Of a stretch of 38,082 bases of DNA, positions 1 through 29,786 are shown in pieces. Both the position numbers and the translations under genes were made by a program. Position 1 is the stretch's first letter. Each line of letters begins with the position of its first letter. The notes below the pieces were generated by a model. It was not told the origin of the DNA and made no database searches. It was given only the letters and a program-made list of their open reading frames with translations. The DNA comes from a virus: positions 1-38,082 of the IMG/VR virus record IMGVR_UViG_3300032020_000028. One strand, 5' to 3'.

Positions 1-477
1 ATCAACATTTGCTTGAGATCCTCCTGCCAACGCTCTTATAGGAGCTGTGGTTTCCCATTGTCCTCTATCTGGCATAAAACTTCCTGGATCAGATATTACA
101 ACAGTTTGTAATGTAACAAATTGCTGCGCTCCAACTTCAGCTCCAGGTTTACTACTTACAATAGTTCCTGCAGGAATAGTTGCAGTTGCTCCAGAACGAT
201 TATAAAAAGTAACGGTACTAGTTGCTCTTACTGCGGGCTTTCTTTCAAGTTGTAAATTTTCTGCAAGTTTCACTAAGTCATCTGCAGACGCCAAATCAGG
301 AGATTGCCCTTTTGAAATAACATCTAATTCAGCATAAAAATTATCAAGGGTATCTGCAACCGGATCAATTACTACATCTCTTGTAAATGTTCCTTCTTTT
401 GTATCGACGCTTGGATGCAAACGTTTTAAAAAATTAATCATGCTTTGAACTATATTCGAAAAACTTTTACGAGCCAT
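1..477 (-). CDS. Baseplate J-like protein (gpJ/gp6 family), N-terminal part, cut by window edge
   Basis: Reading the minus strand from the ATG at 477 gives 159 open codons running off the left edge. The start reads MARKSFSNIVQSMINFLKRL. It is followed by a GT-x-RD-x-x-ID-P-x-A segment, a helical stretch, then a beta segment with an AGTIV motif and a region ending GGSQANV. This order is typical of the N-terminus of baseplate J-like wedge proteins, which sit at the periphery of contractile-tail baseplates. An AAGGAG ribosome binding site lies just upstream of the ATG. The gene follows a gp25-like wedge gene by 12 nt, matching the W-then-J order of P2-like phages. The family call is by sequence pattern only; the C-terminal part is not visible. 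Confidence 0.8.
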   Translation of the reverse strand, partial: MARKSFSNIVQSMINFLKRLHPSVDTKEGTFTRDVVIDPVADTLDNFYAELDVISKGQSPDLASADDLVKLAENLQLERKPAVRATSTVTFYNRSGATATIPAGTIVSSKPGAEVGAQQFVTLQTVVISDPGSFMPDRGQWETTAPIRALAGGSQANVD

Positions 478-489
478 ATAAATTCTCCT

Positions 490-2148
490 TTATAAAGCAA
501 CACTTCCTTGTAATATTGCCATTTCTCCTTCAACAGTTGATACCTGTACCTTAAAACCTAACCATGTTGGGTTATTTTCAATTTCATATATTTCTATTTT
601 TTGTATTTTATCAATCAATTCTTTCAAAGAAAACTTGTAGCCCATGGTAATGCGTTCCCTTTGTAAATATTTCAAACGTAAAACAGCCTCAATAATAGAT
701 TGTTTTAATTTAGCCTCTCGAAATCCCTCTTCTTGCAACATCCCAATACTATCAGAAACAACAGAACCAAATTCTTTATGATATGGATTATTTCCTTTTG
801 ATGTTAATATAACTTTTACTAATTCTTGCAAAAGTTTTTCTTCTTCATTTATTGTAATAATATCTCCACCTGGACTAAATTTTATATCAAAATAAAATCC
901 TTTCCCTAAACATCTTGGGCAAGTATTTAGAGTATATTTTGTTCCAGATAAATTATGATTACAATCATGTTTTAATTTTGCATCAAGTAAAACTGTTTTG
1001 GACTCATCTTTTGTTTTTAAACTAAACGAAGAAACGGGAATTGATACTTCTCTAAATCTAAAAGGATCAGGAGAAGTTGGAGGTGTTACTTTTGCATTTG
1101 ATAAAATAGTTTGCTGGTTTGTTGCATAAATATTAGCATCAGATGTTAACGTTTGAGACTTTAGTCCAGATATATTAGCATCTGAAACAATCGAACCACT
1201 TGAGGTAATATTAAACTGGTCACACCCAATATCAAGATGAGTAGACGGACGCGAATCCAAATCAATATCATAATAAATGTTTAAATCAATACCACTACCA
1301 TCACACAAAGTATTTCCGTCAACAAGATGATAATAATCTGTTCCAGTAGGATCAGATCCCTCAAAAGAATTTAAATCTTTACTTCCACTACTTTGCCATT
1401 CAGCAAGAGTATTGCATATACTATCTCCGACAATAAAAGATCCGCTAGTATATGTATAATAATTATAATCAAAATCCCATAAACTATAATCGCCAGCAGT
1501 ATTTGTATCTAAATACAAAAGGTAATAATCCCTATGAGAAATAACAATATTATTTTTAAACCTTATATTAGCTGTGGCGCTTGTTTGTCTTAAATCAATT
1601 GCATACCCATCTGCACTACTAATTTGGTGAATTGTACAAAAATATATATTTAAATCATTATTAACCCCGATACAATATAAAGAAAGCTCATGACTTAAAG
1701 CAATTCCAATTGCAGAATTTTTTATTGTAAAAGGATAACAGTTTGATAAAACGCGTGCTCTTCCTTTTATTCTACAAGAATCTATAACACAATTTGCAGC
1801 AGCAACATATACTCCATAAGTAGTACCGGTATAATCTCCTTCACAACACACACATTTAACAGTAGTATAAGTTTTTCCAGCAGTAATTCCTACTCCACGT
1901 ATAAGAATAAGGCCAGCATCTCCAGTATATGTTCCTTCAATATCTCCAATAAATGTGACTCCATCATCACTTGGAGTAATATCTTCTCCAGTATAAGAAC
2001 CAGATCCTATATAAACAGTATCACCATTAACACAAGTGGTATTAGCTTTATCAATAGTTAACCAAGGACCAACTCCATAACTACTACTAATTGGAGAAAG
2101 GCCATCGTTTCCATCCCAACCAGATTTTCTTATGTAATAAATAGTCAT
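490..2148 (-). CDS. Beta-helix domain fused to gp25-like baseplate wedge protein (second copy)
   Basis: The 552-residue protein has three parts. Residues 1 to about 310 begin YYIRKSGWDGNDGLSP and contain GDTVYIGSGSYTG, the opening of right-handed beta-helix (DUF1565/pectate-lyase-like) proteins. Residues about 315-350 carry three SDANI-type 14-residue units also found in the giant repeat protein at 19948-22404. Residues about 395-552 hold a C-x-H and CPRC zinc-knuckle-like segment followed by a gp25-like wedge domain (NPYHKEFGS and LQEEGFREAKLKQSI). gp25-type proteins are conserved inner wedge subunits; beta-helix domains usually bind or cleave glycans in tail spikes. No catalytic residues can be assigned. 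The ATG overlaps the stop of the preceding endonuclease gene by one base (TAATG). It is a paralogue of the gene at 3154-5784. Confidence 0.75.
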   Translation of the reverse strand: MTIYYIRKSGWDGNDGLSPISSSYGVGPWLTIDKANTTCVNGDTVYIGSGSYTGEDITPSDDGVTFIGDIEGTYTGDAGLILIRGVGITAGKTYTTVKCVCCEGDYTGTTYGVYVAAANCVIDSCRIKGRARVLSNCYPFTIKNSAIGIALSHELSLYCIGVNNDLNIYFCTIHQISSADGYAIDLRQTSATANIRFKNNIVISHRDYYLLYLDTNTAGDYSLWDFDYNYYTYTSGSFIVGDSICNTLAEWQSSGSKDLNSFEGSDPTGTDYYHLVDGNTLCDGSGIDLNIYYDIDLDSRPSTHLDIGCDQFNITSSGSIVSDANISGLKSQTLTSDANIYATNQQTILSNAKVTPPTSPDPFRFREVSIPVSSFSLKTKDESKTVLLDAKLKHDCNHNLSGTKYTLNTCPRCLGKGFYFDIKFSPGGDIITINEEEKLLQELVKVILTSKGNNPYHKEFGSVVSDSIGMLQEEGFREAKLKQSIIEAVLRLKYLQRERITMGYKFSLKELIDKIQKIEIYEIENNPTWLGFKVQVSTVEGEMAILQGSVAL

Positions 2149-3134
2149 TAATTAATCCAATTTAATAATTCTATTTTTACTTCTTCTGTATTAGTTAAAA
2201 TATCACTTTGCCAAAATCTTAATAAAACAAATCCATTATCTTTTGCTGTTATAGAATGTTTAATATCCCGTTGTTTATTTTCTTTTTGTTTCTTACTTAA
2301 TTTAGAATACTTTTTCGGATTACCGTGCCAATAGTCTCCGTCAACTTCGATGAGGGTGTTGGTATTTAAAATGTGAAAGTCAAATAAGTGATTTTCTAAT
2401 CTAAATTGATGTTCAAAAGGAATATTCAAACTATTAAGAATTTCTTTCATTTTAAGTTCTGGTTTGGTGTCTTTAAATGGTCCAGGGTGAGTTTGAATTC
2501 GGAGTAAAGCACTTTTACTCATTTTTTCTTTTGATTCTTTAGAACAAGGTATATTTTTATGAGATTCGCTTGATTTTTTTAAACTTTCATTAGTCTCTTT
2601 TGTTAATCCCTTACTCCAACTTTTATGTCCTAATAATTTTTTAATTCTTTTTCTTACTGTTTCTTCAGATTGTTTTGTGCCTAATTTTTTATCTCTCATT
2701 TTTTGTTTAGATTCTTCAGAACAAGGAATATTTTTATTCCATGCGGCATGTCCTTTGTTTGCTTCACTAATAGTTCTTAATTTATATCCATTTCTTATAA
2801 TAATAGCTCTAATAGCTACATCACTACAATTCCATTTTTTAGATAAAACTATAGTACTCGGTTTTTCTTTAGAAAAATATTCATTACAAACTTGCAATTC
2901 TTCTTCTTTTGTAAATATTTTACGGGCTTCTTCCTTAGTTCTTGGTTTATGTCCATTTCGTTTAAGAATACTTGTAATTGTGGGATTAGTGCATCCCCAT
3001 CTTTTAGCTAAAAGTACTCCAGTAGTAGTGGTTTTACTAAAATATTCTTTACAAATTTCTTTTTCTTGATCGTCTGTAAATTTCTTATGTATTTTTTTAT
3101 GTTCTTCTGTTTGTTTATATCCTTTTTTTGGCAT
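2148..3134 (-). CDS. Free-standing homing endonuclease, HTH + NUMOD3 + Vsr-like nuclease
   Basis: The 328-residue protein has two tandem helix-turn-helix-like repeats (residues about 20-66 and 73-120, each ending in a RNG-x-K-x-RT segment). Next comes a run of NUMOD3-like elements with repeated SEE-x-K/R segments (about 128-210). A C-terminal PD-(D/E)XK/Vsr-like nuclease domain follows, with [10 protein letters not shown] and [12 protein letters not shown] (E263, D265, D267, H270). That layout matches the I-Bth0305I-type endonucleases, which cut intronless or intein-less alleles and spread their own gene. It sits between the two beta-helix/gp25 genes as a selfish insertion, and its N- and C-termini are nearly identical to those of the gene at 6353-6979. 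The start has AAGGAT upstream. A role in virion building is not expected. Confidence 0.85.
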   Translation of the reverse strand: MPKKGYKQTEEHKKIHKKFTDDQEKEICKEYFSKTTTTGVLLAKRWGCTNPTITSILKRNGHKPRTKEEARKIFTKEEELQVCNEYFSKEKPSTIVLSKKWNCSDVAIRAIIIRNGYKLRTISEANKGHAAWNKNIPCSEESKQKMRDKKLGTKQSEETVRKRIKKLLGHKSWSKGLTKETNESLKKSSESHKNIPCSKESKEKMSKSALLRIQTHPGPFKDTKPELKMKEILNSLNIPFEHQFRLENHLFDFHILNTNTLIEVDGDYWHGNPKKYSKLSKKQKENKQRDIKHSITAKDNGFVLLRFWQSDILTNTEEVKIELLNWIN

Positions 3135-3153
3135 TTATTATCCTTATAAACTA

Positions 3154-5784
3154 TTACACCAATATTTTTCCTGTTAATTCAACTTTTTTACCATGAATAG
3201 TGACAACATAGATAGCGAAACTTAGTTCAGTCGCAGAAAGTTCTGCAATTTCAACTTTATCAATTCTATCAATAAGTTCATGAGATGAAAAATACCCATT
3301 TTGAGTACTTTTAGCTGCTTCAGCTTTCTGATATTTAATTAAATTAAAAATAGATCTCAAAATATCTGATTTTACAACTGTTTTTAATTCTTCTTGACTT
3401 ACTTGACCTATCCTTCTTTGAAGTTTCGCTCCATAATCTGGATGAAAAGGATTAAAATCTGTTAATGTAATTTTTTCTAATTCTTGAGCTAATTTAACTT
3501 CATCCCACACTTGAGGAATTAATCCTCCAGCATCAAATCTTACATCATAAAAATATTCTTTTCCTAAACATCTTGGACAAGTTCCTAAAGTATATTGAAC
3601 ACCTGATAAATAATGTGTACAAGGCCATTTAAATTGAGGTTCTCTATAAGGAGTTTTTCGTATTCTAATTGGACCTGGACCAATCCTAGGAGAAACGTCA
3701 AATCTAAATATATCTGGAGAAGTAAGCGGAGGAACCTCATCAGCTCCTATATCATAACCAAATCTTAAAGGACGTTTTTGTAAATCAATATCACAAAAAA
3801 CATTTATAATAAAATCTTTCCATGTAGCAGTTGCGGTATCAATACAAGGAGAAGTTCTTTCAAGAGTTCCAGAAAGATGATATCCATCATCCAAAAATAA
3901 AGGATCTCCTTCAAAAGAACCACTATCTTGAGAAGTAGCATTTCTCCATTCTTCAAAAGATTGATAACTCACAATATTATCGTGGTAAAAATTACCAATA
4001 TCTGTAGAGGAACTATAATAAAAATTATAAGCATACTCATCATAAGGTAAATTACTATGATCAATTTCCTTATAAAGTATCCATTCATTCGGACCATTAG
4101 TTTTTTGAAAAATGTTATTTACAATAAAATTATAAGGACCTGTTATATTAGCGCAAGCTCCTACCATTAAAGCAGAACCACTATTATGAATAAAAGTATT
4201 ATGAAAAATCCAATTACTTCTACATCCAGTAATAGCATTTATAGTATATCTTGCATAACTTGGATCGGCCATATAAGAGTTGGAATGGGCAACACAATTA
4301 ACAATTCGCATACAATAAGCACCATACATCCAAAGAGCTTTGTCTATTATTAATTGACGAAACTCACATCCGTGGGAATTGTAAATAACAACTCCGCCCC
4401 TAATTGTCGGAGCATAAACATACTCATCGTAAAAATGAATATTTTCGAGCCATAAATGATGTTTTCCACTATTATAAAAAGATTCTACTTTAATTTCCCC
4501 TTTATCTCCAGTATGTATTCCTTGCCGATCTCCATACCATTTAGTATAAGAACCACTTTCTGGCACTACTAAATCTTCAGCATAAGAACCAGACCCAATA
4601 TAAACAGTATCATAATTTTTTATAACACTTGTTGCTTTTCCTAAAGTTAAGAAAGCGGTTGAAGGAGATAGTCCGTCGTTACTATCATTACCTGTTTTTC
4701 TTACATAATAAATACAAGAATAACTTGAAGATGCTCCTTGCCACTCAAAACACCCTTTATCAGAAGAGCTTCCATATGGTCTTATATTTCCTTCAATATC
4801 TTCATCGCATACATTTGGAGAGCCAGTATCAACACAAGGAGAAGAAGCATTTAACCTATATCCTACAGGTTCTTTCATATACCCTAATACATTTGCCCAA
4901 CCTTTAGAACTATGACTATCCATACTAGATGAAATTAACTGCCATTGTTCTAAATTTTTTACAATTGACCCATTGTTGTATATAAAATTTCCTTCATAAT
5001 ATTCATAGTGATTATAATTAGAATAAAAGAAAGAAGCAGTTCCTAATAACTTATAAATTCCGTGAGCAGAACTAACATAATAAGGGTTAAAATTTATAAA
5101 AATATTATTTCTTGAGCGAACAATAACCCCATCAGTGGCTTGTATATTTATGTCAAAATTCGAACTTGTTGCATTAAAAATAGTGCAATGATACAAATTT
5201 AGGTATACAACTTGATTTTGAGTATTATTATTAATAACAAGAACAGTATCTATAACCTCTTCTTTATAACCAAGAAAACAATTTTCAAAATATATATTTG
5301 TATTATTTATATAAGATCTTTCAGCTACCTTACATTTAATTACATATGTATATGTAGCGTCAGGATCAAGAACTGAGGACCAAGCATAAATACTTCCATA
5401 ATAATCTATTATTGGTGGAGGAGTTTGATATGACCCAAACAAATCTATATTTTCAATATATGCATAAGCATCTTTTAAATAAGCAAAGTCAACTCGAACA
5501 GGACCAACTTCTGGAAAAATAATGCCGCTTGGATCCCCAATATAAGATATTGGATAAGCAACAGAACCAGACATTGTTATCCATATATGATCCCCTGATT
5601 TAGTAAAAGGACTTTCTGCAGAAGTATAAGTTCCCGCTTCAATATAAACAGTATCACCAAAATCTATTGCATTATTAGCCTTACCAAGAGTTCCCCAAGG
5701 ACCATGTCCTCCTCCTTCATCAGTTGGAGCTAATCCATCCCAACTATTATCCCCGTGTAATTTGCTTATGTAATAAAAAGGCAT
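3154..5784 (-). CDS. Double beta-helix domain fused to gp25-like baseplate wedge protein (first copy)
   Basis: The 876-residue protein contains two tandem beta-helix modules. The first (residues 1 to about 350) opens YYISKLHGDNSWDGLAP and the second (about 357-695) opens YYVRKTGNDSNDGLSP. Each has the GDTVYI/YDTVYI-x-x-G-x-Y signature and many NN/N-x-I turns typical of right-handed parallel beta-helices. Residues about 735-876 carry C-x-H and CPRCLGK, then a gp25-like domain (NPFHPDYGAKLQRRIG). gp25-family proteins are normally about 100-150 residues, so this is a wedge subunit with large N-terminal decorations. By inference the wedge domain anchors the beta-helices at the baseplate rim, where they could act as receptor-binding or glycan-degrading modules. 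It starts 4 nt after the previous stop with no clear Shine-Dalgarno, suggesting translational coupling. Confidence 0.78.
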   Translation of the reverse strand: MPFYYISKLHGDNSWDGLAPTDEGGGHGPWGTLGKANNAIDFGDTVYIEAGTYTSAESPFTKSGDHIWITMSGSVAYPISYIGDPSGIIFPEVGPVRVDFAYLKDAYAYIENIDLFGSYQTPPPIIDYYGSIYAWSSVLDPDATYTYVIKCKVAERSYINNTNIYFENCFLGYKEEVIDTVLVINNNTQNQVVYLNLYHCTIFNATSSNFDINIQATDGVIVRSRNNIFINFNPYYVSSAHGIYKLLGTASFFYSNYNHYEYYEGNFIYNNGSIVKNLEQWQLISSSMDSHSSKGWANVLGYMKEPVGYRLNASSPCVDTGSPNVCDEDIEGNIRPYGSSSDKGCFEWQGASSSYSCIYYVRKTGNDSNDGLSPSTAFLTLGKATSVIKNYDTVYIGSGSYAEDLVVPESGSYTKWYGDRQGIHTGDKGEIKVESFYNSGKHHLWLENIHFYDEYVYAPTIRGGVVIYNSHGCEFRQLIIDKALWMYGAYCMRIVNCVAHSNSYMADPSYARYTINAITGCRSNWIFHNTFIHNSGSALMVGACANITGPYNFIVNNIFQKTNGPNEWILYKEIDHSNLPYDEYAYNFYYSSSTDIGNFYHDNIVSYQSFEEWRNATSQDSGSFEGDPLFLDDGYHLSGTLERTSPCIDTATATWKDFIINVFCDIDLQKRPLRFGYDIGADEVPPLTSPDIFRFDVSPRIGPGPIRIRKTPYREPQFKWPCTHYLSGVQYTLGTCPRCLGKEYFYDVRFDAGGLIPQVWDEVKLAQELEKITLTDFNPFHPDYGAKLQRRIGQVSQEELKTVVKSDILRSIFNLIKYQKAEAAKSTQNGYFSSHELIDRIDKVEIAELSATELSFAIYVVTIHGKKVELTGKILV

Positions 5785-5788
5785 ATGT

Positions 5789-6307
5789 TTACATTAAGTT
5801 TAAAAGTTCGATCCATCTATCGATTTGTAATAATTCTGCATTCAATTGGTCTCGAGCCCTAGTAGTTAAATCCAGTGCAGCGTTTGCACTTTGAAGGCGA
5901 TAATTTATTTCACTCAATATATTTTCTACATCACTAAAACCTTCAATTTTTAATTCAGGCACTCCAGCTCCTTTAATCATGCTTTGCATCAATCGTTGAA
6001 TCTCCGGACAGTTGGCAGCAACGGCCCCAAAATGAGTTACATTTAATATATTTTTTACTGAATTTAGTTTTTGACTTACAATAGTAAACAAATCATTAAA
6101 TTTTTGAGAAAGCATGTTGTTACGCAGTATTTGGAAACATAATTTATTTACCTTTAATTCCAGCAAACTTCTTTGTTGCTGTAAAAATAGTTTTAAAGCA
6201 CTTCGAGCCGGATATGAAAGAGCCAGAAGGGTAGTTATAAAACAATTAGAAAATCCCGTCTTTTCATGTAATTCATCAATCAAATTCTGAGTTAATAAAT
6301 CAATCAT
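5789..6307 (-). CDS. Unknown helical protein in baseplate cluster
   Basis: I do not recognise this 172-residue protein. It looks almost entirely alpha-helical. Long amphipathic stretches include LQQQRSLLELKVNKL near residues 42-56 and a C-terminal helix rich in leucine, alanine and glutamine (about 130-172). There is no signal peptide or clear membrane span. An AAGGA ribosome binding site precedes the ATG at 6307. It lies between spike and wedge genes, with a homing endonuclease inserted just upstream. The location suggests a baseplate or tail-associated structural or assembly role, but this is inference from position only. Confidence 0.6.
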   Translation of the reverse strand: MIDLLTQNLIDELHEKTGFSNCFITTLLALSYPARSALKLFLQQQRSLLELKVNKLCFQILRNNMLSQKFNDLFTIVSQKLNSVKNILNVTHFGAVAANCPEIQRLMQSMIKGAGVPELKIEGFSDVENILSEINYRLQSANAALDLTTRARDQLNAELLQIDRWIELLNLM

Positions 6308-6352: not shown

Positions 6353-6979
6353 TTATATTATAATTTTTAATTTATTTTTAATCTCTTTTTTATTATTTAA
6401 AATAGCATCTTCCCAAAATCTTAATAAAATAAAACCATTATTTATAGCTACTTCATTATGTTTTTTATCTCTTTCTCTTTGTTTCAGTTGTGTTTTATTT
6501 AATTTACTAAACTTTTCAGGATTACCATGCCAGTAGTCGCCGTCAACTTCAATGAGAGTATTAGAATTGAGAATATGAAAATCAAATAAATGATTTCCTA
6601 ATCTAAATTGATGTTCAAAAGGGATGTTTAATTCATTAAGAATCTCTTTCATTTTAAGTTCGGGCATAGTGTTTTTGTAAGGACCGTGTTGAGTTTGAAG
6701 TTGCAATATAGTATTTTCCCGCATTTTTTGTTTTGTTTCTTCAGAAAAAGGAAGTCTCTTTTTACCTTTATGTGATTCACTCATATTTCTTTTTGTCTCT
6801 TCAGAAACAATCTTACCTTTTTCTGATTTGCTTATTTTTCTTTTTGTTTCATCAGAACAAGGATTATGTTTACCAAACATAGGGTGCTTTTCACCACAAT
6901 AATCCCCCCTAACAACAGGATTATTTTCTCTTATTTTCTGTTTGTGTTCTTCAGTTTGTTTATATCCTTTTTTAGGCAT
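6353..6979 (-). CDS. Free-standing homing endonuclease, NUMOD3 + Vsr-like nuclease
   Basis: The 208-residue protein starts [13 protein letters not shown], as does its paralogue at 2148-3134. It lacks that paralogue's two helix-turn-helix repeats. Residues about 28-90 contain NUMOD3-type elements (GEKHPMFGK and several SEETK-x-K/R-x segments) that are expected to contact DNA. Residues about 100-208 form a Vsr/PD-(D/E)XK-like nuclease with [19 protein letters not shown] and [12 protein letters not shown] (E144, D146, D148, H151). This resembles the I-Bth0305I homing endonuclease family. A GGAG site lies about 8 nt before the ATG. The gene separates the spike gene from the 172-residue gene and does not interrupt a reading frame that I can see. 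Confidence 0.85.
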
Positions 6980-6996
6980 TATTTTAACTCCAATTA

Positions 6997-8091
6997 TTAT
7001 TCTGCCTTTACCTTTGTAGATATTTCCCCAGTAGACTGCGGAAGAGGAGTATTAGTTGTTCCCCCTGTTTCTAGATGCGTGTGTGTATTATAAGTAGTTA
7101 TAAAATCAGAAAGTACCACATTTTTTTCTCCACCGCCACCGCCAAGTTCTATATCATCGCATTTTACTTTTAATTTTTGTCCATCAGCGATTGTCATAGT
7201 AACATTTCCTGTCTTATCAACTGTAAATTCAAATCCAACAGAACTTTTTGTTCTTATTTGAATACATATTTCTTCGTCCGATTCAGCATGTTGACTTGTA
7301 GTAGTCTCTGGCGAATATACAGTATCTAGCCCCGAACCTACTTTTTTAATTTTTGTTCCTAAAATAACTTCAACAAATGGATCATTAGTTTCTGGAGGGG
7401 TAAGAGGATTTACATCAGCTGTTTCTAAAACTCTTAATCTAAATTCTGTAAAAGCTTTTCCACTATTTAAAATAGAAATATTGTTTTTAGTAACAAGAAC
7501 CATTTCAGAATTCTGTGCAGGATCTGGATATGTAGGCATTTCCCTTTTTACTAACCCGAAATCAAGTACTCCCGCTTCAGTAGTACATTGATAAGTCATA
7601 CTATTCTGATGAATCAAATTATCATTTGGATCAAGTTCCCACCAATCACCAGTTCCATCTCTAAAAATAATTTTGCCAGTTTTTGACATATATATTTCTG
7701 AACCAGTTGGAATTGGAATAGGATATTGACTTCCTTTAACAACATCTGAACCAGAATAACTCCTCCAAAGTTTTTCTCCAGGATATATTTGTTTTGATTT
7801 CCCCGCTTCCACCTGCCGAATATATCCAACAGGCATATATCTATCAATTTCTGGAAGATCTCCATATCTCATTGCAATAAGAGCAACAGCTCCTGGAACA
7901 GGAAAATCATAAGAACCAAAAGCAGCTTGACTTATAACAACATTTTCTCTTCCTCCGGGATGATCTAACCATTTTAACTTAACTGTTCCTCTTTGTTCAT
8001 CTACCTCTGTTATAACAGCAAGGCGATGAAATGGCGTAGATGATAATATATGTCCTCCAAATGCTCTTTCATCTTTGAAATAATATCTCAC
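6997..8091 (-). CDS. Baseplate central spike protein (gpV/gp5-type OB-fold)
   Basis: The 364-residue protein has an N-terminal OB-fold-like domain (residues about 22-92) with [19 protein letters not shown], a glycine/proline-rich turn and the typical [15 protein letters not shown] segment. A long beta-rich region follows. Near the C-terminus, [11 protein letters not shown] carries an HTH motif like the metal-binding apex of P2-type spikes. It is therefore the likely membrane-piercing tip below the hub. The start codon is GTG at 8091-8089 and it overlaps the hub stop codon (GTGA), so translation is probably coupled. A homing endonuclease gene follows 17 nt later. No lysozyme domain, as in T4 gp5, is present. 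Confidence 0.85.
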
Positions 8092-10502
8092 GAAACACCA
8101 CCTTTAACTTTCAACGCATCTTTAGTATATTTTTCAGGATTCACAAAACCTTCTGTTTTACGTTTCATACAATAGCGTAAAGTACTACCAGTAATATAAC
8201 CAATTGGAGTATCAACACGAACATCTCCTTTAACATTTATATTTATAGTTGACGACATTCCATAATAATGTGTCTCATAATTACCTCCCTTAACCTTTAT
8301 AATTGCATAATCCATTCCACACTCTTCTACTGTACCATCATGAGTTGCATATACAGTAGCTGTTTTCATTGCAACAGGTTTCAAATCAATACCTCTTGGC
8401 ATAAGTTCTTCTTTAGATGTTTTTTCTCCAACTACCGTTCTAGTCCGTGTTTTTACCCCGTACCCAGCTTCAATTACATATGGTTGTGCTCTAAGAGGCC
8501 AATAAAGTGGATCATCTTTACTTCCTTTTGAATCAACTGTTTCGTGAGTTTCTATAGTTTCCATTGATACATTTCCTTCTCCAACTTCTCCATCAACAGC
8601 TGGGTGTGCAACATAAGATAAAAGTTCTGGTAAAGATTCCCAAGGTTTTCTTCCATAAGTTAAACCTAAAGTAGTATTAAAACTTTCACCAAAAGTAAAA
8701 CTATGAGCAATTGAATTAACATAATATATCATATTTCGGGATGGAATATACACAGGCATTGCCATTTTTATTTCAGGTCTACCAACAATAATGACTGTTC
8801 CTGTATTTCTTTCAGCAAGTACTCTAAAAAGTAATGATTGGGCATAATAATAACAATCAGCTGAAGTTCTTACAAACGGATGACTTACGGTAATCATTCT
8901 CCTACCATATTTCAAAATAAGACCTTTATCTTCATAATAATTCACAAGATTTAGTGGATACTGTTCTCCCTCAACATAATCTTGCTGACCAACAACTAAA
9001 ATTGAAGTAATTATTGGCTCATCAGTTTCAGTAAAATTCCAACTAATAATATCATCATCCTTTAAAACATAAATTTCTGGTATATCAGAAGTCAAAATAT
9101 GACGATTATCAAAACGTGGTTGATGATACCAAATATCCCCGTTTTGATCAGCATAAAATTCAAAAAGGGTTGTTTTTGCTAATTCATAGCAAATATCCAA
9201 ATGAGTTACATATTCATTTTCATAATTTACAGTAGCTAAATTCCCTACAAACATTTTGTATGGGGTTGTAACCAATTCTTCGTGTTCATTATATTGCTTT
9301 TTTTCAGTAGGAATTTGAATATGTACTCTTGATGTTGAAAATAACTTATCTAATTCAGATACATCTTCCCTTTCAATAATCCCAGAACGCATTGCTTTTG
9401 CGGCCTGTAATACCCCTAAAGCACCATCTTTTAAATATTTTTGGCCATAATCAAAAGTAACTGGAACAAGTGTATCTGGAGTACCTTCTGTAACATCAAG
9501 TAAAGCAGTTTCTGGACCTATTGTCGGATCATACTCAAATTCACCAACTCCTCTTACAAGAACATGTTCACTATCTAATCCCCCAAAAATTAAAAGGCGT
9601 ATTATTTCCCAAGGTTCCAGAAGAACAAACCTTTTTGACCAAACTCTCACAGTATCAGGTCCGGAATCTGGTAATTTTTCAGTCAAAATTGATGGATTTA
9701 CATTAGCTAAAGTCATTTTCAACCATTTAGTAACATCTTCTCCTGAAATTATTAATTTTGAAAAATTTTCAGTATAATCATCAGACACAGAATTCACAAT
9801 TCCAGTAAAAGCAGTAATAAAATCATATGGATGTTTTTCAGTTTCAAATCTTTTAGAAAATAAAATTACAACTCTATCCATTGGATGAAAAACACATCTT
9901 CCCTGTTCAACCATTCCTCCATGTTTTTCATACAAATCTAAATTTGGAAGAGAGCCACTTACAACATTCTCAAGGTCTTTTCCAGACAATACCACAAACT
10001 CATCTACAACATCTAAATTTTCTTTTCCGTGAGCTTTTAACCAGTTTTTATCATTAGCCCTTTTCCAGTAACCAATAGCCCCATCTTTTTTATTTTGATA
10101 TCTTTCTAACGTACAAATAGAACCATCGGGAAGTATCCAAAAACGTTTAAATTCTTCGTGATTTAACCATTCTAAAGCATTTTTATAAGGATATACAGAT
10201 TTCTGTCGAGCAGCCGTTTCCGGCTGTAGATTAAAAGGAGATTCGTTTAAATTTTTGATTTCAAAAGCAGGATCATCTTTTATAAAATAACGTTCATTTT
10301 TGTTACTTAAAGTAATAGAAAAAGTTCCGGGTTGCTTAGTAATATTTAATTCTACTTTAATACTAATAACATCTCTTATTTCAGGAGCAATAATTTGTTT
10401 ACTATCTCTCAATTTTCCAGATCCTGTCCATTTTGGATCTAAAAAATAAACACGTGCTTCCGGCCAATAATGTTTAATTCTATGTTTTGTTAAATCAGTC
10501 AC
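8088..10502 (-). CDS. Baseplate hub protein with C-terminal degenerate M23 (LytM-like) domain
   Basis: This is the gp27/gpD-type hub that joins tube and spike. The beta-rich N-terminal half includes ISIKVELNITKQPGTFSITL and later SKLIISGEDVTKWLKMTL, a segment common in hub proteins. Residues about 700-804 resemble an M23/LytM fold (RGIDLKPV, VYATHDGTVEE, THYYGMSS, DTPIGYITGST). The first zinc histidine and the HxH pair are not present at the expected places, so it is probably not an active peptidase. I chose the GTG at 10502, giving 804 residues, because GGGGAG lies about 8 nt upstream and the start overlaps the preceding stop by a few bases. An upstream in-frame TTG at 10523 would add seven residues and lacks such a site. 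The 3' end overlaps the spike gene. Confidence 0.82.
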   Translation of the reverse strand: MTDLTKHRIKHYWPEARVYFLDPKWTGSGKLRDSKQIIAPEIRDVISIKVELNITKQPGTFSITLSNKNERYFIKDDPAFEIKNLNESPFNLQPETAARQKSVYPYKNALEWLNHEEFKRFWILPDGSICTLERYQNKKDGAIGYWKRANDKNWLKAHGKENLDVVDEFVVLSGKDLENVVSGSLPNLDLYEKHGGMVEQGRCVFHPMDRVVILFSKRFETEKHPYDFITAFTGIVNSVSDDYTENFSKLIISGEDVTKWLKMTLANVNPSILTEKLPDSGPDTVRVWSKRFVLLEPWEIIRLLIFGGLDSEHVLVRGVGEFEYDPTIGPETALLDVTEGTPDTLVPVTFDYGQKYLKDGALGVLQAAKAMRSGIIEREDVSELDKLFSTSRVHIQIPTEKKQYNEHEELVTTPYKMFVGNLATVNYENEYVTHLDICYELAKTTLFEFYADQNGDIWYHQPRFDNRHILTSDIPEIYVLKDDDIISWNFTETDEPIITSILVVGQQDYVEGEQYPLNLVNYYEDKGLILKYGRRMITVSHPFVRTSADCYYYAQSLLFRVLAERNTGTVIIVGRPEIKMAMPVYIPSRNMIYYVNSIAHSFTFGESFNTTLGLTYGRKPWESLPELLSYVAHPAVDGEVGEGNVSMETIETHETVDSKGSKDDPLYWPLRAQPYVIEAGYGVKTRTRTVVGEKTSKEELMPRGIDLKPVAMKTATVYATHDGTVEECGMDYAIIKVKGGNYETHYYGMSSTININVKGDVRVDTPIGYITGSTLRYCMKRKTEGFVNPEKYTKDALKVKGGVS

Positions 10503-11313
10503 TCTTTCTCTCCCCCTCTGCAAGTTGTTTTAAATATTCTATGGTAGCAGTATTGCGTATAATATCTTGCTGGATCTCTTGTTGTGCACTACTAACGCTT
10601 GTTGCTTCATACTCAACAGCAAATTCTACTTTATATTCAAGCTGAAAAGGTTTTTCTCCAACTTCATCAAAACCAAAATTCCTCAAATGTCCTACATAAA
10701 TATTTTCTCTATATTCTAATCCTAACATTGTTACATTCCCAATAGATTGCTGTTCTTGGTCTTCATTATATAATTGTTCAAATTCTCTAAAAGCTTTATA
10801 AGCTTCAGAATTATCAACTGTAGGATTTTCATTTTTAATACGTGCTGTAAAAGACGTTGGTGTTATATTACCAGTAGTACCTCCAAATGAAATAAGTGTA
10901 ATATCTGGACCCCAATGTTGAAATTCAAATCCTCCCCTCGTTCTTATTCGAGTAATTAATTTACTCTTTACAATACTAATATTGCGAGGATTTACATGAA
11001 ATTTAAATGCAGCAGCAATATCAGAAGATTCTTCTTTTCCAGCCACAATAAATTTTTCATCATTTCTCATAATATAAGGAGTATTTGTTTTTGTCTCCCT
11101 ATAAACTCTGTAAACCATTCCTTCGTCTATTTTTTTAGTTAATATAGAATCATTAGTGCATTTATCCGTTTTACCTTCAATAATATATTCTGCTCCACGA
11201 GGAAATAAATTGTTATTACTTGTGGATACATTAATGTAACCTCTAACTGTTGCTTCTTTTTCCGGTGAAGGTGGACGTAATTTCCATATTCTTATTATTT
11301 CACGTTTTCCCAT
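10495..11313 (-). CDS. Baseplate inner protein / tail tube initiator-like
   Basis: The 272-residue protein contains FKFHVNPRNISIVKSK (residues about 104-119), followed by GGFEFQHWGPDITLISFGG and TG. This pattern is typical of baseplate proteins placed between tape measure and hub in contractile phages (gp53/LysM-like or tube-initiator class), where they nucleate tube assembly. A C-terminal helix with glutamates ends the protein. The ATG at 11313 has an AGAGGT site upstream. The 3' end overlaps the hub gene by 8 nt, indicating coupling. I infer the exact structural slot from gene order; the motif shows only that it is a baseplate protein. Confidence 0.7.
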   Translation of the reverse strand: MGKREIIRIWKLRPPSPEKEATVRGYINVSTSNNNLFPRGAEYIIEGKTDKCTNDSILTKKIDEGMVYRVYRETKTNTPYIMRNDEKFIVAGKEESSDIAAAFKFHVNPRNISIVKSKLITRIRTRGGFEFQHWGPDITLISFGGTTGNITPTSFTARIKNENPTVDNSEAYKAFREFEQLYNEDQEQQSIGNVTMLGLEYRENIYVGHLRNFGFDEVGEKPFQLEYKVEFAVEYEATSVSSAQQEIQQDIIRNTATIEYLKQLAEGERKSD

Positions 11314-15735: not shown

Positions 15736-17106
15736 TTAAATATAGACGAAAAAAGTAACGCGAATGTAGTTAAGTGGATACAAATATCGAATACTTCCAG
15801 TAACGTTTATTTGTCTCGGCTCATCTGGATCTGTTACCGCCTTAATAGGAACTTCTCCAGTCAAAGGATCTGTTTTCGTCCCATATACATAAATAAATCC
15901 ATTCCTAACCATTGCATTCCAAATTGCTTTTACAGATTCCTCAACTGCTCCAGGAGTTGTAGGACCTATCACAATTCCCTTGTTAAGAAACATTTCATCC
16001 AATCTCGTTCTTGTAATTCTTCTTACATAATCATCACTTGCAACAACAGACACTTCAGCAGTAGTCGCAGAAGTCGGATCTGTAGTAAGTGAATGTCTAA
16101 CTTTTATAACTCCAGATTCACTATAACATACAAGAACTCCATTAGCTCCTAATCTGTTCATATCATATGGTTCATATGCCTCATCTGGAATTGCAAATCC
16201 TACAAGAACCTTTCCAGTTATTGGAGATACAACTTTTTCCTGAGCACAAATAGAACCTGCCACTGCAGCAGCAACATAAGTACCATCAAGAATTAAATCT
16301 CCTCTTGATACATTTTCACTTGGAAATACTAAAATAACTCGAATACTTTCTAAAGCCTGAGCTCTTGCCACATGATCATCAACATCTGACCCTGAAGACA
16401 TTCCTAAAATACATTCTCTTTCATGTCCTATTAAAGGTTGAGACTCAATTAAACAATGGTTGGAAGCGTATCCCTGTATAGTTTCATCATTACTAATAGG
16501 AATAACATATGCAATGTTCTTTTTCTTTTTCAACTTATTAAAAGCAGTTTGCCAATCAGAATCATTAGATCCGCTTACCTGAACACACATAACAGCTGGA
16601 GCACCATTTTCTAGAGCAAGATTTGCTGCAATAGTCATTTGTCCAGTTATTAAATCTTCATCTCCATAAAATGCTCTAACATCATCTGAGTCAACAAACA
16701 AAGTAGGATCAAATTGTGTTGCTGGAACAGGATAAGTATAAGAAACATAATAAATTTCTCCTTCACGTGGCTGACCATCACCAGGAGTTCCACTATCCCA
16801 TTGAATATATCCGAGATTATTAACATCTGTTCCCGCCCCATAAGACCAATGTCCACTCCAGTTAGAATAACTCCCAGAAACATTTGGAATAGCAGCAACT
16901 TGTGTAACGGTTACTCCATAATGCAATAAATAATCTACATTTGAAGAACCTGAACTAGCAGCACGTTCAACTGGTTCATCTATTACTGTTCTTATACTAG
17001 GACCTGTAGAAATAATAGCTGGTATTCTTGCCTCCTCAGAAATACTAATTACTCGTTGACTTATAATACTTTCAACGGTCACCCCGGGTGCCTGATATGT
17101 CATCAT
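15736..17106 (-). CDS. Contractile tail sheath protein
   Basis: The 456-residue protein opens MMTYQAPGVTVESI, the classic APGVYVEE-like sheath start, and has RIPAIISTGPS soon after. The C-terminal part has DDYVRRITRTRLDEMF, GIVIGPTTPGAVEESVKAIW and a final beta strand region (INVTGSIRYLYPLNYIRVTF) matching the conserved sheath domain that forms the intersubunit mesh. The presence of this gene makes the phage a contractile-tailed one. AGGAGG lies 6 nt before the first of two adjacent ATG codons. The tube gene follows 42 nt downstream. Confidence 0.92.
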   Translation of the reverse strand: MMTYQAPGVTVESIISQRVISISEEARIPAIISTGPSIRTVIDEPVERAASSGSSNVDYLLHYGVTVTQVAAIPNVSGSYSNWSGHWSYGAGTDVNNLGYIQWDSGTPGDGQPREGEIYYVSYTYPVPATQFDPTLFVDSDDVRAFYGDEDLITGQMTIAANLALENGAPAVMCVQVSGSNDSDWQTAFNKLKKKKNIAYVIPISNDETIQGYASNHCLIESQPLIGHERECILGMSSGSDVDDHVARAQALESIRVILVFPSENVSRGDLILDGTYVAAAVAGSICAQEKVVSPITGKVLVGFAIPDEAYEPYDMNRLGANGVLVCYSESGVIKVRHSLTTDPTSATTAEVSVVASDDYVRRITRTRLDEMFLNKGIVIGPTTPGAVEESVKAIWNAMVRNGFIYVYGTKTDPLTGEVPIKAVTDPDEPRQINVTGSIRYLYPLNYIRVTFFVYI

Positions 17107-19947: not shown

Positions 19948-22404
19948 TTAATCATCATAAGGATCAATATGTTTTTCTTTGTTTGTTGAATCAATATAAC
20001 TTCGAACGCTTTTTGTTTCAACGTAAGAATTAGGATATCCAGGTTGAATATAAGATTTTTGATCAGTACTAATAATTTCTCCTTGTCCTTTTCCTAAAAT
20101 GCAAGCGTTCGATATAATAGTCCGTTGTTTTACTCCTATAACATGAGCATCTGAAACAATAAACTGTTGAACTATAACAGAAACATAAGTATCAGATACA
20201 ATTGTCTTTTGAACATTTACAATTTCTACATTAGTATTAGATGCAATTGATTTTTGAACCTTTCCTTTTACATTTGCATCAGATACAATTAACTTTTGAA
20301 TATCAACTTTTTCTATATTAGCATCAGAAGTAATTATCTTCTGAATATCAACAATTTCAACATTAACATCTGAAACAATTACTTGTTGAACATTTTCTTT
20401 TCTAATATCAGAATCTGATACAATTACTTGTTGTTGTGTTTTTGCAACATTAACATCAGATATAATTGTTTTCTGTATATCGACAGTTTCAATATTAGTA
20501 TTAGAAGCAATTGTCTTTTGAACATTTACAATTTCTACATTAGTATTAGATACAATTGGGTGCTGTTTAACTGCCTCAATATTAACATTTGCCTGAATAG
20601 TTTGTTGTTTTACAATTTCAACATTAGCATCTGAAACAATTACTTTCTGAATATTAACTTTTTCTACATTAGCATCTGAAACAATTACTTTCTGAATATT
20701 AACTTTTTTTACATTAGCATTTGCTATAACTAATTGTTGAATGTTGCCAGTTTCAATATTAACATCAGATATAATTGTTTTCTGTATATCTACAGTTTCA
20801 ATATTAGTATTAGAAGCAATTGTCTTTTGAATATCAACTATTTCAATATTAGTATCTGAAACAATAAACCGTTGACCAGCTACAAAAACATAAGCATCAG
20901 ACGCAATTAACTTTTGAATACCAACTTTTTCAATATTAACATCAGATACAATTAACTGTGGAACATTTATAATCTCTACATTAACATTTGAAGTAATAAA
21001 TTGTTGTTCTACTACAGAAACATTAGCGATAGATACAATTGTCTTTTGAATACTTACAGTTTCAACATCTGCATTAGATACAAGCAATTGTTGAACATTT
21101 ACAGTCTCTACATTAGCATTTGAAACAATAAACTGTTGTATATTTACTTTTTCAATATTAGCATCTGAAACAAGTATCTCTTGTATACCTACAATTTCAA
21201 TACTAGCATTAGATTGAAATGTTTTCTGTATATCAACTTTTTCTACATTAGCATCTGAAACAATTATCTGCTGAACATCAACAATTTCAATATTTGCATC
21301 TGAAACAATTACTTGCTGAATATCAACTTTTTCAATATTACCATCAGATACAATTGTCTTTTGAACATTGACAGTTTCAATATTAGCATTAGATTGAATT
21401 GCCTGTTGTTTAGTAACTCCTATATTAGCATCTGAAACAATAGTCTTTTGAATGTTAACAGTTTCAACATTAGCATTAGATAAAACTGTTTGTTGTATGT
21501 TAACAGTTTCTACATTAGTATCTGAAACAATAAACTGTTGACCTACAACAAAAATATAAGCATCAGATACAATTACCTTTTGAATATCAACTTTTTCAAC
21601 ATTAGCATCTGAAGTAACTATTCTCTGTTTTACAATCTCTACATTAGTATCAGATACAATTGTTTTCTGTATATCTACAGTTTCAACATTAGCATTTGAA
21701 GTAATAAATTGCTGTTCTATCGCAGAAACGCAAGCATTAGATAAAATTGTTTTCTGTATATCTACAATCTCTACATTAGTATCAGATACAATTGTTTTTT
21801 GTATATCTACAGTTTCTATATTTGCACCAGATACAATAGTCTTTTGAATGTTTACAGTTTCAATATTAGTATCAGATACAATAAACTGTTGAATATCAAC
21901 TTTTTCAATATTCGCATTTGATAGAACTAATTGTTGAACAGCCTTTTCAATATTAGTATCTGAAACAATAAACTGTTGTCCCACAATAGAAACATAAGCA
22001 TCAGATAAAACTGTCTTTTGAATGTTAACAGTCTCAATATTAGCATCTGAAACAATAGTCTTTTGAACAACAGTTTCAACATTAGCATTAGATACAATTG
22101 TCTTTTGAATGTTTACAATCTCAATATTAGCATTGGATACAATAGTTTTTTGTATATCTACAACTTCAATATTAGCGTCAGATTGAACCGTTTGCTGTTT
22201 AGTAACTTCAATATTAGCATTTGAAACAATTGTTTTTTGTATATCTACAACTTCAATATTAGCGTCAGATTGAACCGTTTGCTGTTTAGTAACTTCAATA
22301 TTAGCATTTGAAACAATTGTTTGTTGTTTTGCTTCAACAGTTCCATCCCAAATTCTAATGGTGTCGTCCCAGTAACCATAATCCCATATGTAAATACTAG
22401 TCAT
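19948..22404 (-). CDS. Giant tandem-repeat protein (about 51 SDANIE-type units)
   Basis: The 818-residue protein starts MTSIYIWDYGYWDDTIRIWD, then consists almost wholly of 14-15-residue units with the pattern S-D/N-x-N-I/V-E-x-V-x-I-Q-x-x-I-V (residues about 30-770). It ends with a non-repetitive tail rich in Tyr, Ser and Lys. The alternating hydrophobic pattern suggests short beta strands stacking as a fibre or solenoid. No known domain is recognised. Three units of the same kind occur in the wedge fusion protein at 490-2148. A virion fibre or adhesin is a reasonable inference from that link and from its place in the structural operon. AAAGG lies before the ATG. Confidence 0.75.
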   Translation of the reverse strand: MTSIYIWDYGYWDDTIRIWDGTVEAKQQTIVSNANIEVTKQQTVQSDANIEVVDIQKTIVSNANIEVTKQQTVQSDANIEVVDIQKTIVSNANIEIVNIQKTIVSNANVETVVQKTIVSDANIETVNIQKTVLSDAYVSIVGQQFIVSDTNIEKAVQQLVLSNANIEKVDIQQFIVSDTNIETVNIQKTIVSGANIETVDIQKTIVSDTNVEIVDIQKTILSNACVSAIEQQFITSNANVETVDIQKTIVSDTNVEIVKQRIVTSDANVEKVDIQKVIVSDAYIFVVGQQFIVSDTNVETVNIQQTVLSNANVETVNIQKTIVSDANIGVTKQQAIQSNANIETVNVQKTIVSDGNIEKVDIQQVIVSDANIEIVDVQQIIVSDANVEKVDIQKTFQSNASIEIVGIQEILVSDANIEKVNIQQFIVSNANVETVNVQQLLVSNADVETVSIQKTIVSIANVSVVEQQFITSNVNVEIINVPQLIVSDVNIEKVGIQKLIASDAYVFVAGQRFIVSDTNIEIVDIQKTIASNTNIETVDIQKTIISDVNIETGNIQQLVIANANVKKVNIQKVIVSDANVEKVNIQKVIVSDANVEIVKQQTIQANVNIEAVKQHPIVSNTNVEIVNVQKTIASNTNIETVDIQKTIISDVNVAKTQQQVIVSDSDIRKENVQQVIVSDVNVEIVDIQKIITSDANIEKVDIQKLIVSDANVKGKVQKSIASNTNVEIVNVQKTIVSDTYVSVIVQQFIVSDAHVIGVKQRTIISNACILGKGQGEIISTDQKSYIQPGYPNSYVETKSVRSYIDSTNKEKHIDPYDD
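20090..22320 (-). repeat. Tandem repeats encoding 14-15-residue units
   Basis: DNA repeats of 42-45 nt (or doublets near 87-93 nt) cover most of the gene. They are diverged at most positions. At the 5' end (about 22150-22320) a 93-nt doublet is nearly identical in two consecutive copies, pointing to recent slippage or unequal recombination. All unit lengths are multiples of three, so the frame is kept. Confidence 0.9.
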
Positions 22405-23689: not shown

Positions 23690-24391
23690 TTAAACAATTA
23701 TCACTCTTCCTGGGTAACTTAAACAACCGCCTATTCCCTTTGGAGAACCAACTACATCTATATGATTGCCGTTCGGTCCTCTATCTTTGATAGATCCTGT
23801 AGCTACCACTCCACCAGACCAGTCATCCCCTGGATAGTAAGCTACTAACTTAGTTGATTGAATCATCAAAGGTAAACCCTTTCTAAAAGCTACATATAAC
23901 TGGTTAATCTCAGCAGTAGTCAATTGAGCATTCCAAAGAGCAACCTCAGATATCTTTCCATCAATTTGACTGCCCTCAATACCTCCAAGCATGCAAGTAT
24001 AATCTGGACCAGATTTAGGAGTTAAAGCTGTTTTTGCAACACTATAAAGAGTTTGATTTACCGTCAAATAAAGATAAGTTGAAGTGATTACTCCACAAAG
24101 AAAATACCACATATTTAACGCAAGGTTTACATCGAAAAGATTATACTTATAACTTGTTCCATCTCCATAACCCACATTTACATCTGTTGGAGTACCCAAA
24201 CTAAACCCCAAACCATAATTCCAATTCTTTACTAAAGAGCCGCCTCCCGCTAAAAATCTTTTAAGCAAACCACTATTTCCATCTAATGGACCGGTATCAA
24301 TTTTTATCCACCCGGACATAGTTATAGGAAGAGCTGCAATTGCATTAACATCTTTTGCAAAATAATTATTTGCACTAATATCTACTGCCAC
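23690..24391 (-). CDS. LamG/concanavalin A-like lectin-fold protein
   Basis: The 233-residue protein has the layout of a LamG-type jelly roll. An ITMSGWIKID strand opens the core, with YGLGFSLGTPTDV and WYFLCGVITSTYLYLTVNQ in the middle. The typical ISEVALWNAQLTTAEINQLY and LVAYYPGDDWSGG...DRGPNGNHIDVVG segments follow. These features are common in domains that bind surface glycans, so it is a candidate host-binding virion protein. The start is GTG at 24391 with GGAGG upstream. It follows the fibre-like gene with a 9-nt gap and precedes another beta-rich gene. Confidence 0.82.
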   Translation of the reverse strand: MAVDISANNYFAKDVNAIAALPITMSGWIKIDTGPLDGNSGLLKRFLAGGGSLVKNWNYGLGFSLGTPTDVNVGYGDGTSYKYNLFDVNLALNMWYFLCGVITSTYLYLTVNQTLYSVAKTALTPKSGPDYTCMLGGIEGSQIDGKISEVALWNAQLTTAEINQLYVAFRKGLPLMIQSTKLVAYYPGDDWSGGVVATGSIKDRGPNGNHIDVVGSPKGIGGCLSYPGRVIIV

Positions 24392-27945: not shown

Positions 27946-28741
27946 TTAAGAAGCACATGGACAAGGAATTCTACCAGTGAAGGTACCCTTAGCAACTGAA
28001 TTTGCATTAACTATAAGCATTCCAATTTCCTCATAACCAACATATGCGATGAGTGCTCTTTTTGGCTCATCGTCCGGCATTAAAATCAAATCAGTACGAA
28101 TAGGTAATACTCCAGTAAATCTCGGTTCAGAGAAACAATATACTGTACTTGCAGGAACTAATCGAGAAACGATAATATCAATTCCCCAAATAGAACCCAT
28201 CAAGCCAGTTTGCATAATTTCTCTTTGAGTTACTGGATCCACGTCATCCCTTTGCCACGATCTAATATGAGAATAAGACTTCATGTTCATTAAAAATGCA
28301 TACGCAGGTAAATCGTGATCCTGAACAGTAGCCGCCAATTCATTTAGAAAATCTTTGTTAAGACCAGTCGTACTGGTAACAATTGGATTGTTAGCAGTAT
28401 TTGCTAAAACAGTAGCTAACGCTAAAGCCAAAAACTGAGTATCTTCCTCTAACTGAACATGAATCCTAATCTTCTCTTGCATACGATCTAAAACATTGAA
28501 CCTACGCTGTTGGATTTCAGATAACCTAATTCCCTCAGGAGCGAAAATCTCCCAAGTCTTAGGCTCAACATAATCTCCCTCAACGATAAAATCAATAATT
28601 TCACCACGCTTTGCAACAGTAGTTGCAAAACCTGCGATGTCACGATCGTAACGCGCAATTTGTCCTTGTGCTAATACATCGATCTCAAAAAACCTTCTGG
28701 CCATGCCTTGGTAATCTAAAGTTTCCCTGATTGGTATCGCC
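27946..28741 (-). CDS. Major capsid protein, exon 2 (C-terminal part)
   Basis: After splicing this exon encodes residues 65 (last base) to 329 of the capsid protein. It continues AIPIRETLDYQGMARRFFEI, a segment typical of HK97-fold capsid proteins. It then has the long helix and beta hinge regions, and a C-terminal IVSRLVPASTVYCFSEP... part that ends CPCAS. The segment upstream of the first in-frame ATG (28704) continues the same open frame only to the intron boundary, so the ATG is internal. With exon 1 the protein is 329 residues, a normal capsid length. This is inferred from sequence pattern and gene order after protease and decoration genes. The stop is followed by a strong stem-loop. Confidence 0.88.
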
Positions 28742-29592: not shown

Positions 29593-29786
29593 ATCTGGGC
29601 ACCAAGGGCAGACCTTCCAGCCTCTGTCTGTAGCAAAGTCCAAATTTGTTCACTCTCATCAGCAGTATTGTGAATATTATAGGGATCTAATTCCGTAAAA
29701 TCCCCTTTCTTTACTGCAAAACCGCTTTTGGGAGCTTCTTTTCTAAATCCAGGTGGATACGAACTTGCTTTTGCTTTGAAGGCCAT
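29593..29786 (-). CDS. Major capsid protein, exon 1 (N-terminal part)
   Basis: The exon runs from the ATG at 29786 and ends two bases into codon 65. It encodes MAFKAKASSYPPGFRKEAPK, a region with ELDPYNIHNT, and helical IWTLLQTEAGRSALGAQ. Without splicing the frame would stop after two more codons (TAA at 29588-29586), so the intact capsid protein depends on intron removal. AGGAGGTG lies at good spacing in a leader identical to that of the preceding decoration gene. Together with exon 2 (27946-28741) it makes a 329-residue protein. I expect this to be one of the most strongly made proteins of the phage. Confidence 0.88.

Follow-up and report, generated by a model that had tools for sequence, protein, structure and literature searches.

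Two paralogous gp25-type sheath-initiator/wedge proteins fused to N-terminal beta-helix modules in a viral contig from IMG/VR

The IMG/VR contig IMGVR_UViG_3300032020_000028, which derives from an uncultured tailed bacterial virus, was analyzed over its entire length of 38,082 bases, which is referred to here as the window, and it encodes on its minus strand two paralogous proteins, A and B, in which gp25-type sheath-initiator/wedge domains are fused to beta-helix modules. A first-pass annotation of the window had proposed such fusions in two copies, with one or two N-terminal beta-helix modules and a shared C-x-H/CPRC knuckle, and had allowed that a frameshift might show them to be separate genes; both reading frames are unbroken, and the architecture recurs in relatives. 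The segment marked in that annotation, 490-5784, does hold A and B, but an unrelated homing-endonuclease gene (2148-3134) lies within it as well. The parts of the two proteins, with lengths in amino acids (aa), are as follows.

490..2148, minus strand: paralogue B, 552 aa; beta-helix, repeat linker, knuckle and gp25/sheath-initiator domain
1216..2148, minus strand: B residues 1-311, module folded as a right-handed beta-helix; the modelled strands reach about residue 245 and the C-cap motif RP...DIGCDQF reaches 311
1084..1203, minus strand: B residues 316-355, linker made up of three 'xSDANI' repeats of 14 residues each, with a copy number that varies among relatives
910..963, minus strand: B residues 396-413, knuckle (C-x-H / C-P-R-C), probably a zinc site
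493..963, minus strand: B residues 396-552, knuckle and gp25/sheath-initiator domain
3154..5784, minus strand: paralogue A, 876 aa; two beta-helix modules, knuckle and gp25/sheath-initiator domain
4738..5784, minus strand: A residues 1-349, first beta-helix module; choice_anch_Q at 310-349
3733..4716, minus strand: A residues 357-684, second beta-helix module, a homologue of the one in B
3568..3621, minus strand: A residues 722-739, C-x-H / C-P-R-C knuckle
3157..3621, minus strand: A residues 722-876, gp25/sheath-initiator domain together with the knuckle

The C-terminal domain of B matched the Pfam family Sheath_initiator (PF10934) with E=2.2e-6 and 28.1 bits, slightly below the gathering score of 32.9, and phrog_43, 'baseplate wedge subunit', with E=8e-4, so that the absence of any gp25 profile match, an outcome that the first-pass annotation had named as refuting it, did not occur. 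When a profile of the family (15 members) was compared with the PDB, the phi812 ORF61 'baseplate wedge subunit' came first (E=3.4e-5), followed by a dozen gp25/sheath-initiator structures, with T4 gp25 at E=0.014. The domain is thus shared by profile with phi812 ORF61, T4 gp25, XM1 gp15 and XkdS-like proteins, though the solved gp25/sheath initiators differ from A and B in having no beta-helix and in being mostly 110-150 aa long, and phi812 ORF61 (234 aa) has an N-terminal extension of another kind. The EPR motif, which we take to be the mark of the T4 gp25/TssE subgroup and which does not define PF10934, is absent from the gp25 domains of both A and B, and both were therefore kept out of that subgroup.

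The fold of B agrees with this assignment. Its AlphaFold2 model combines a gp25 fold with a right-handed beta-helix that runs from residue 1 to about 245, with predicted local distance difference test (pLDDT) values mostly of 65-87 across residues 31-210 and lower beyond. A Foldseek search of the whole model against the PDB returned nothing at E<=0.001, and the informative searches were the VIA structure comparison and those of the viral library BFVD. The helix resembles tailspikes and polysaccharide lyases with DALI-like Z scores of 15-19 over ~220 residues, the top match being the Fri1 gp49 tailspike (Z 19.2, 219 residues, 3.2 Å), and its structural neighbors include depolymerase tailspikes, alginate/pectate lyases and Pel9A. 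Because the helix fills the VIA match list, that list is no test of the gp25 part; the BFVD list is headed by baseplate wedge, DUF2634 and IraD/Gp25-like proteins, with Bacillus phage G gp187 (E=1.9e-9) and the Mycobacterium phage Tonenili baseplate wedge protein (template modelling score 0.79 on the target, 2.8 Å) as the best viral matches. The choice-of-anchor Q family (NF041518) was not matched by B, and its beta-helix is supported by the fold, with Z up to 19.2, and by homology to A.

For paralogue A the assignment takes a different route. In the Pfam scan A matched nothing, and among PHROGs it matched just phrog_2669, 'baseplate protein' (E=0.0034); A and B are paralogous (E=8e-53), with 41% identity across the last ~200 aa, and on these sequence grounds A is assigned to gp25 through its paralogy with B and through the family profile. 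Structure prediction, proposed with the original annotation as a check, was of use for B but of little use for A, whose AlphaFold2 model is poor (mean pLDDT 40.7) and was given little weight, although its first module reaches Z 12-14 to beta-helix proteins. The helices of A are also marked by the choice-of-anchor Q C-cap (NF041518), matched above cut-off in two stretches (E=7.3e-10).

The knuckle, with its CxH and CPxC halves, is found not only in A and B but in nearly all family members, including phage G gp187 (as CPKC), and it deviates in L028, a distant locus, to CxxxxxH; its four conserved Cys/His ligands make it a probable zinc site. Modules of different folds are attached at two places relative to it. 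Ahead of the knuckle lies either a beta-helix or, in one relative, a probable F5/8C domain, and within the knuckle loop, between CxH and CPxC, lies a LamG domain in L035 (Pfam E=5.9e-9) and inserts of ~85-140 aa in phage G, L032 and L040, that of L040 with a weak DUF4815 match. CxH and CPxC are 14-16 residues apart where nothing is inserted and 100-212 apart where a domain is. The gp25 core therefore has two attachment sites that are used by unrelated folds. Loci with knuckle-loop inserts are:

L035:5341-6420
L014:7521-8426
L032:5515-6423
L040:5689-6435

Fusions of gp25 in other phages, which the first-pass annotation had suggested looking for, were found in L010-L013, in L063 and, with a diverged beta-helix, in L028. 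A full-length B query found no close relative in IMG/VR, and an alignment of the core was required, which recovered 12 and then 19 loci there and one further locus in bacterial genomes; L060 proved to be a false match, its translation showing a zinc-finger-like CxxCxGxG repeat. Among cultured phages the core has a relative only in phage G, to which an unannotated 'uncultured phage' record, LR745208, can be added. All five close relatives examined (L010, L011, L012, L013 and L063) have the genes in the order 172-aa protein, A, B, Baseplate_J, and what varies is the N-terminal region. Paralogue A has no module in L010, one helix in L011, L013 and L063, and two in L012 as in the window, and the L010 A is a plain 195-aa gp25 while the L010 B bears a module. 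Paralogue B has one helix in L010, L011, L012, L013 and the window, and in L063 a probable F5/8C galactose-binding domain instead (Pfam E=0.0057, sub-threshold), followed by the same xSDANI repeats, which across relatives number one to about six copies of 14-15 residues. The distant relatives have a single gp25, which is plain and 157-198 aa long in L015, L018, L020, L021, L026, L033 and L034, and which in L028 has its own diverged N-terminal beta-helix.

The helices diverge far more than the proteins around them. Between the window and its relatives the gp25 core is 66-69% identical in A and 67-69% in B, the probable spike 75-76% and Baseplate_J 83-88%, compared with 31-42% for the helices; for the distant members compared the corresponding values are 63-69% for gp25, 72-76% for the spike, 73-88% for Baseplate_J and 30-42% for the helices. 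Between L011 and L012 the identity in the core is 91% for A and 95% for B, but in the helices it is 32% (A) and 35% (B), and L012 and L013, which are largely identical in B and Baseplate_J, drop in the middle of the B helix to 60% DNA identity beside 100% identical downstream sequence. In an alignment of 11 beta-helix modules from five phages, the residues kept in at least nine are those of the N-cap, the Asn/Thr ladder and the C-cap. No catalytic residue is common to all 11 aligned modules, and the central rungs lack a conserved acidic pair, though active sites may vary by module.

Several further observations concern B and its surroundings in these relatives. In L012 and L013 (7590-7625 in both) an identical 35-nt segment, containing a stop, a Shine-Dalgarno-like AGAGG and an ATG, splits B at the end of the beta-helix, leaving the last helix strand with the gp25 half; the two halves might rejoin by strand docking, or the segment might be passed by translational bypass. 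It was sought elsewhere as a mobile or bypass element and, among viral contigs, occurs only in L012 and L013. The linker repeat of B is also the repeat of an 818-aa window protein (19948-22404, minus strand), which consists almost entirely of ~51 copies of a 14-15 residue unit (QKTIVSDANIETVNI) and gives just a weak pentapeptide-repeat signal in Pfam. The sole relative from bacterial genomes, L063 (JAGMCF010000218.1), is a phage-like contig binned to Candidatus Cloacimonadota, a bin whose sampled contigs have similar G+C (30-37%) and in which other contigs have choice-of-anchor-Q-like C-caps, hinting at this phylum as the host, though the binning may be wrong.

In the window A and B lie within a contractile-tail gene module that is entirely on the minus strand:

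1..477, minus strand: first part of the Baseplate_J gene (gp6/gpJ type), truncated at the end of the record; it fixes the gp25 slot
5789..6307, minus strand: 172-aa baseplate-cluster protein, which adjoins gp25 in all close and several distant relatives
6997..8091, minus strand: probable tail spike, from its position after the M23-bearing hub gene and its THTH... C-terminus
8088-10523, minus strand: M23-bearing hub
from the sheath gene towards the hub, minus strand: tube-like protein, tape-measure-like protein and tube initiator, in that order
15736-17106, minus strand: sheath gene (phrog_2839, E=2.8e-40)

The position of gp25 just before Baseplate_J is common to the window, phage G (gp187-gp188) and all close relatives, and the L010 counterpart of the truncated Baseplate_J gene matches PF04865 with E=1.7e-20. 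The spike gene itself has no profile match, and since its family profile also matched nothing in the PDB, the label rests on position and C-terminus. Together with a LamG lectin gene in the window (23690-24391, Pfam E=2.3e-11), three candidate fibre genes without a family match downstream of gpI in relatives, and a separate beta-helix gene in L011, this probable spike speaks against the earlier suggestion that the phage has no separate spike or fibre; the window ends inside Baseplate_J, ahead of the region where fibre genes would follow. The L011 gene (2861-4792) encodes a 643-aa protein that begins like a tail fibre and contains a beta-helix of the pectate-lyase type (PF12708, E=2e-4), and it sits between A and B in the gap that an endonuclease gene fills in the window. 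Two such NUMOD3 and DUF559/Vsr homing-endonuclease-like genes (2148-3134 and 6353-6979, both minus strand) are inserted among the window baseplate genes, and L011, L012, L018 and L063 have similar ones within the same cluster, in the same or neighboring gaps. Elsewhere in the window (27946-29786, minus strand) the major capsid gene is apparently split, its first 66 aa (29586-29786) and remaining 252 aa (27946-28704) lying on either side of a LAGLIDADG-like endonuclease open reading frame (28827-29483), with the capsid and LAGLIDADG assignments made by eye. Rfam group I intron models gave sub-threshold matches on the strand of the capsid gene (28795-28952, E=5e-8; 29452-29561, E=0.06), which is probably interrupted by a group I intron.

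We consider it probable, though well short of certain, that A and B are paralogous sheath-initiator/wedge proteins acting as carriers of host-recognition modules, and the modules do behave like host-recognition parts, being fast-diverging, exchanged and optional beside conserved neighbors. The gp25 homologue of XM1 is a monomer that sits atop each wedge core and touches the first sheath ring (PMC10457771). The C-terminal gp25 domain would seat each of A and B where the wedge meets the first sheath ring, with the knuckle and a conserved 'SPDxFxF' segment as the border of the core. Ahead of this core, one or two right-handed beta-helices would be displayed, that of B held off by the variable-length repeat linker, and around the baseplate-sheath junction they would most likely bind surface glycans such as capsule, exopolysaccharide, O-antigen or similar. 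The many added contacts at the tail tip may aid the phage in landing or staying on the cell, and modules could be swapped to track the host. The arrangement suggests that a normally plain sheath-seating protein has been turned into an additional host-gripping site.

Some considerations weigh against this interpretation. Three of the five close relatives (L010-L012) share one metagenome, low structural constraint rather than host-driven selection could explain part of the module divergence, and we know of no characterized counterpart for two different gp25 paralogues within one ring. The XM1 gp25 homologue, moreover, lies beside the sheath and not on the host-facing side (PMC10457771), and the reach of the modules therefore matters, a need that the variable-length linker of B suits but that is harder to reconcile with paralogue A, which has no repeat linker.

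The same modules might do something other than bind. The first-pass annotation had spoken of glycan-binding or -cleaving modules, and while their rapid change, exchange and optional presence fit recognition, cleavage gains no support from the alignment, in which no catalytic residue is conserved across modules. That the beta-helices are enzymes, baseplate-fixed glycan lyases or hydrolases cutting capsule or exopolysaccharide during landing, is in our judgment unlikely: many phage beta-helices are depolymerases, and the depolymerase tailspikes, alginate/pectate lyases and Pel9A are among the nearest structures to B, but only the caps and the Asn/Thr ladder are kept in at least nine of the 11 modules, while the central rungs have no kept acidic pair, and known phage depolymerase helices are mostly trimeric, yet the XM1 gp25 homologue is a monomer on each wedge (PMC10457771). 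Cleavage by some modules is possible. A purely structural role as spacers or clamps of a large baseplate without host contact might be expected of a protein placed close to the sheath, and rigid tail spacers are commonly beta-helices; because such a clamp should be conserved like its neighbors, modules that change fast, are missing from L010 A, are exchanged between related phages and give way to unrelated, lectin-like folds at the same site or one next to it make this quite improbable.

Other doubts concern the proteins that carry the modules. An assembly artefact or chimeric gene is barely credible. The contig is metagenomic and two relatives, L012 and L013, have a divided B, but five more contigs, drawn from three data sets, encode this pair in open frames with helices of 30-42% identity. 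What divides B in L012 and L013 is not a read error but a 35-nt segment common to both, next to helix sequence that differs between them, and the window has no such break. A variant of the carrier interpretation, in which B alone is the true sheath initiator and A is a different adaptor hanging modules on the wedge, deserves to be kept in mind as a tentative possibility, since B, next to Baseplate_J, occupies the slot of phage G gp187, the A and B cores are just ~40% identical and separate in the tree, and the single-copy L026 groups with A at modest support. The two cores, however, are conserved to a similar degree, and the combination in L010 of a plain A with a module-bearing B means that A is not a dedicated carrier, which counts against such a division. 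We give little credence to the further idea that the sheath initiator is itself a host sensor, in which module binding would pull on gp25 and the first sheath ring and surface glycans would trigger or gate contraction, bypassing the fibre-to-wedge route, from a mixed ring of two gp25 paralogues with up to three beta-helices per wedge.

Among known systems, phage G gp187 (with its L032 relative) is the best match in sequence and fold, sharing the gp25 core, the CPKC knuckle (in gp187) and the slot before a Baseplate_J-type gene, but it is single-copy, has no beta-helix and has a ~135-aa insert within the knuckle loop, between CDH and CPKC. Two systems are the closest precedents. One is Vp4 Gp119, baseplate wedge 3 of a member of the Herelleviridae, which bears carbohydrate-binding modules (CBMs), is reported to bind the host surface and, like A and B, is an enlarged wedge protein, its near relative Deep-Blue Gp177 being much shorter (PMC11406892); Gp119 is of the A511 gp105 type rather than gp25, and its modules have CBM folds rather than beta-helices. 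The other comes from skunaviruses, where CBM inserts in the distal tail protein (Dit) promote adsorption, and such evolved Dit proteins are likewise a conserved tail-tip core with optional, exchangeable glycan-binding inserts (PMC10688798), though with another core, other inserts and the siphophage tail type, so that just the working principle is alike. The choice-of-anchor Q proteins (NCBIfam NF041518) and beta-helix tailspikes share the module fold and C-cap motif, but they are secreted bacterial proteins or stand-alone trimeric spikes and are not joined to gp25.

Glycan-binding decoration is known for Dit, the tail tube, the neck and one wedge protein, and the sheath initiator is one of the best conserved components of these tails when they are contractile and usually one of the smallest. 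No description of gp25 fused to a beta-helix was found in the open-access literature, an absence that is weak evidence. Tail-tip proteins enlarged by glycan-binding modules are thus already known, and what is new here is that the carrier is the sheath initiator, on which unrelated folds have made repeated use of two attachment sites within the phage G-like family. One practical consequence is that gp25 homologues can hide in proteins annotated merely as beta-helix, lectin or unknown. If the proposed role is correct, it would add another route by which contractile-tail phages alter host recognition, and it would name a short conserved core that naturally tolerates foreign domains in front of it.

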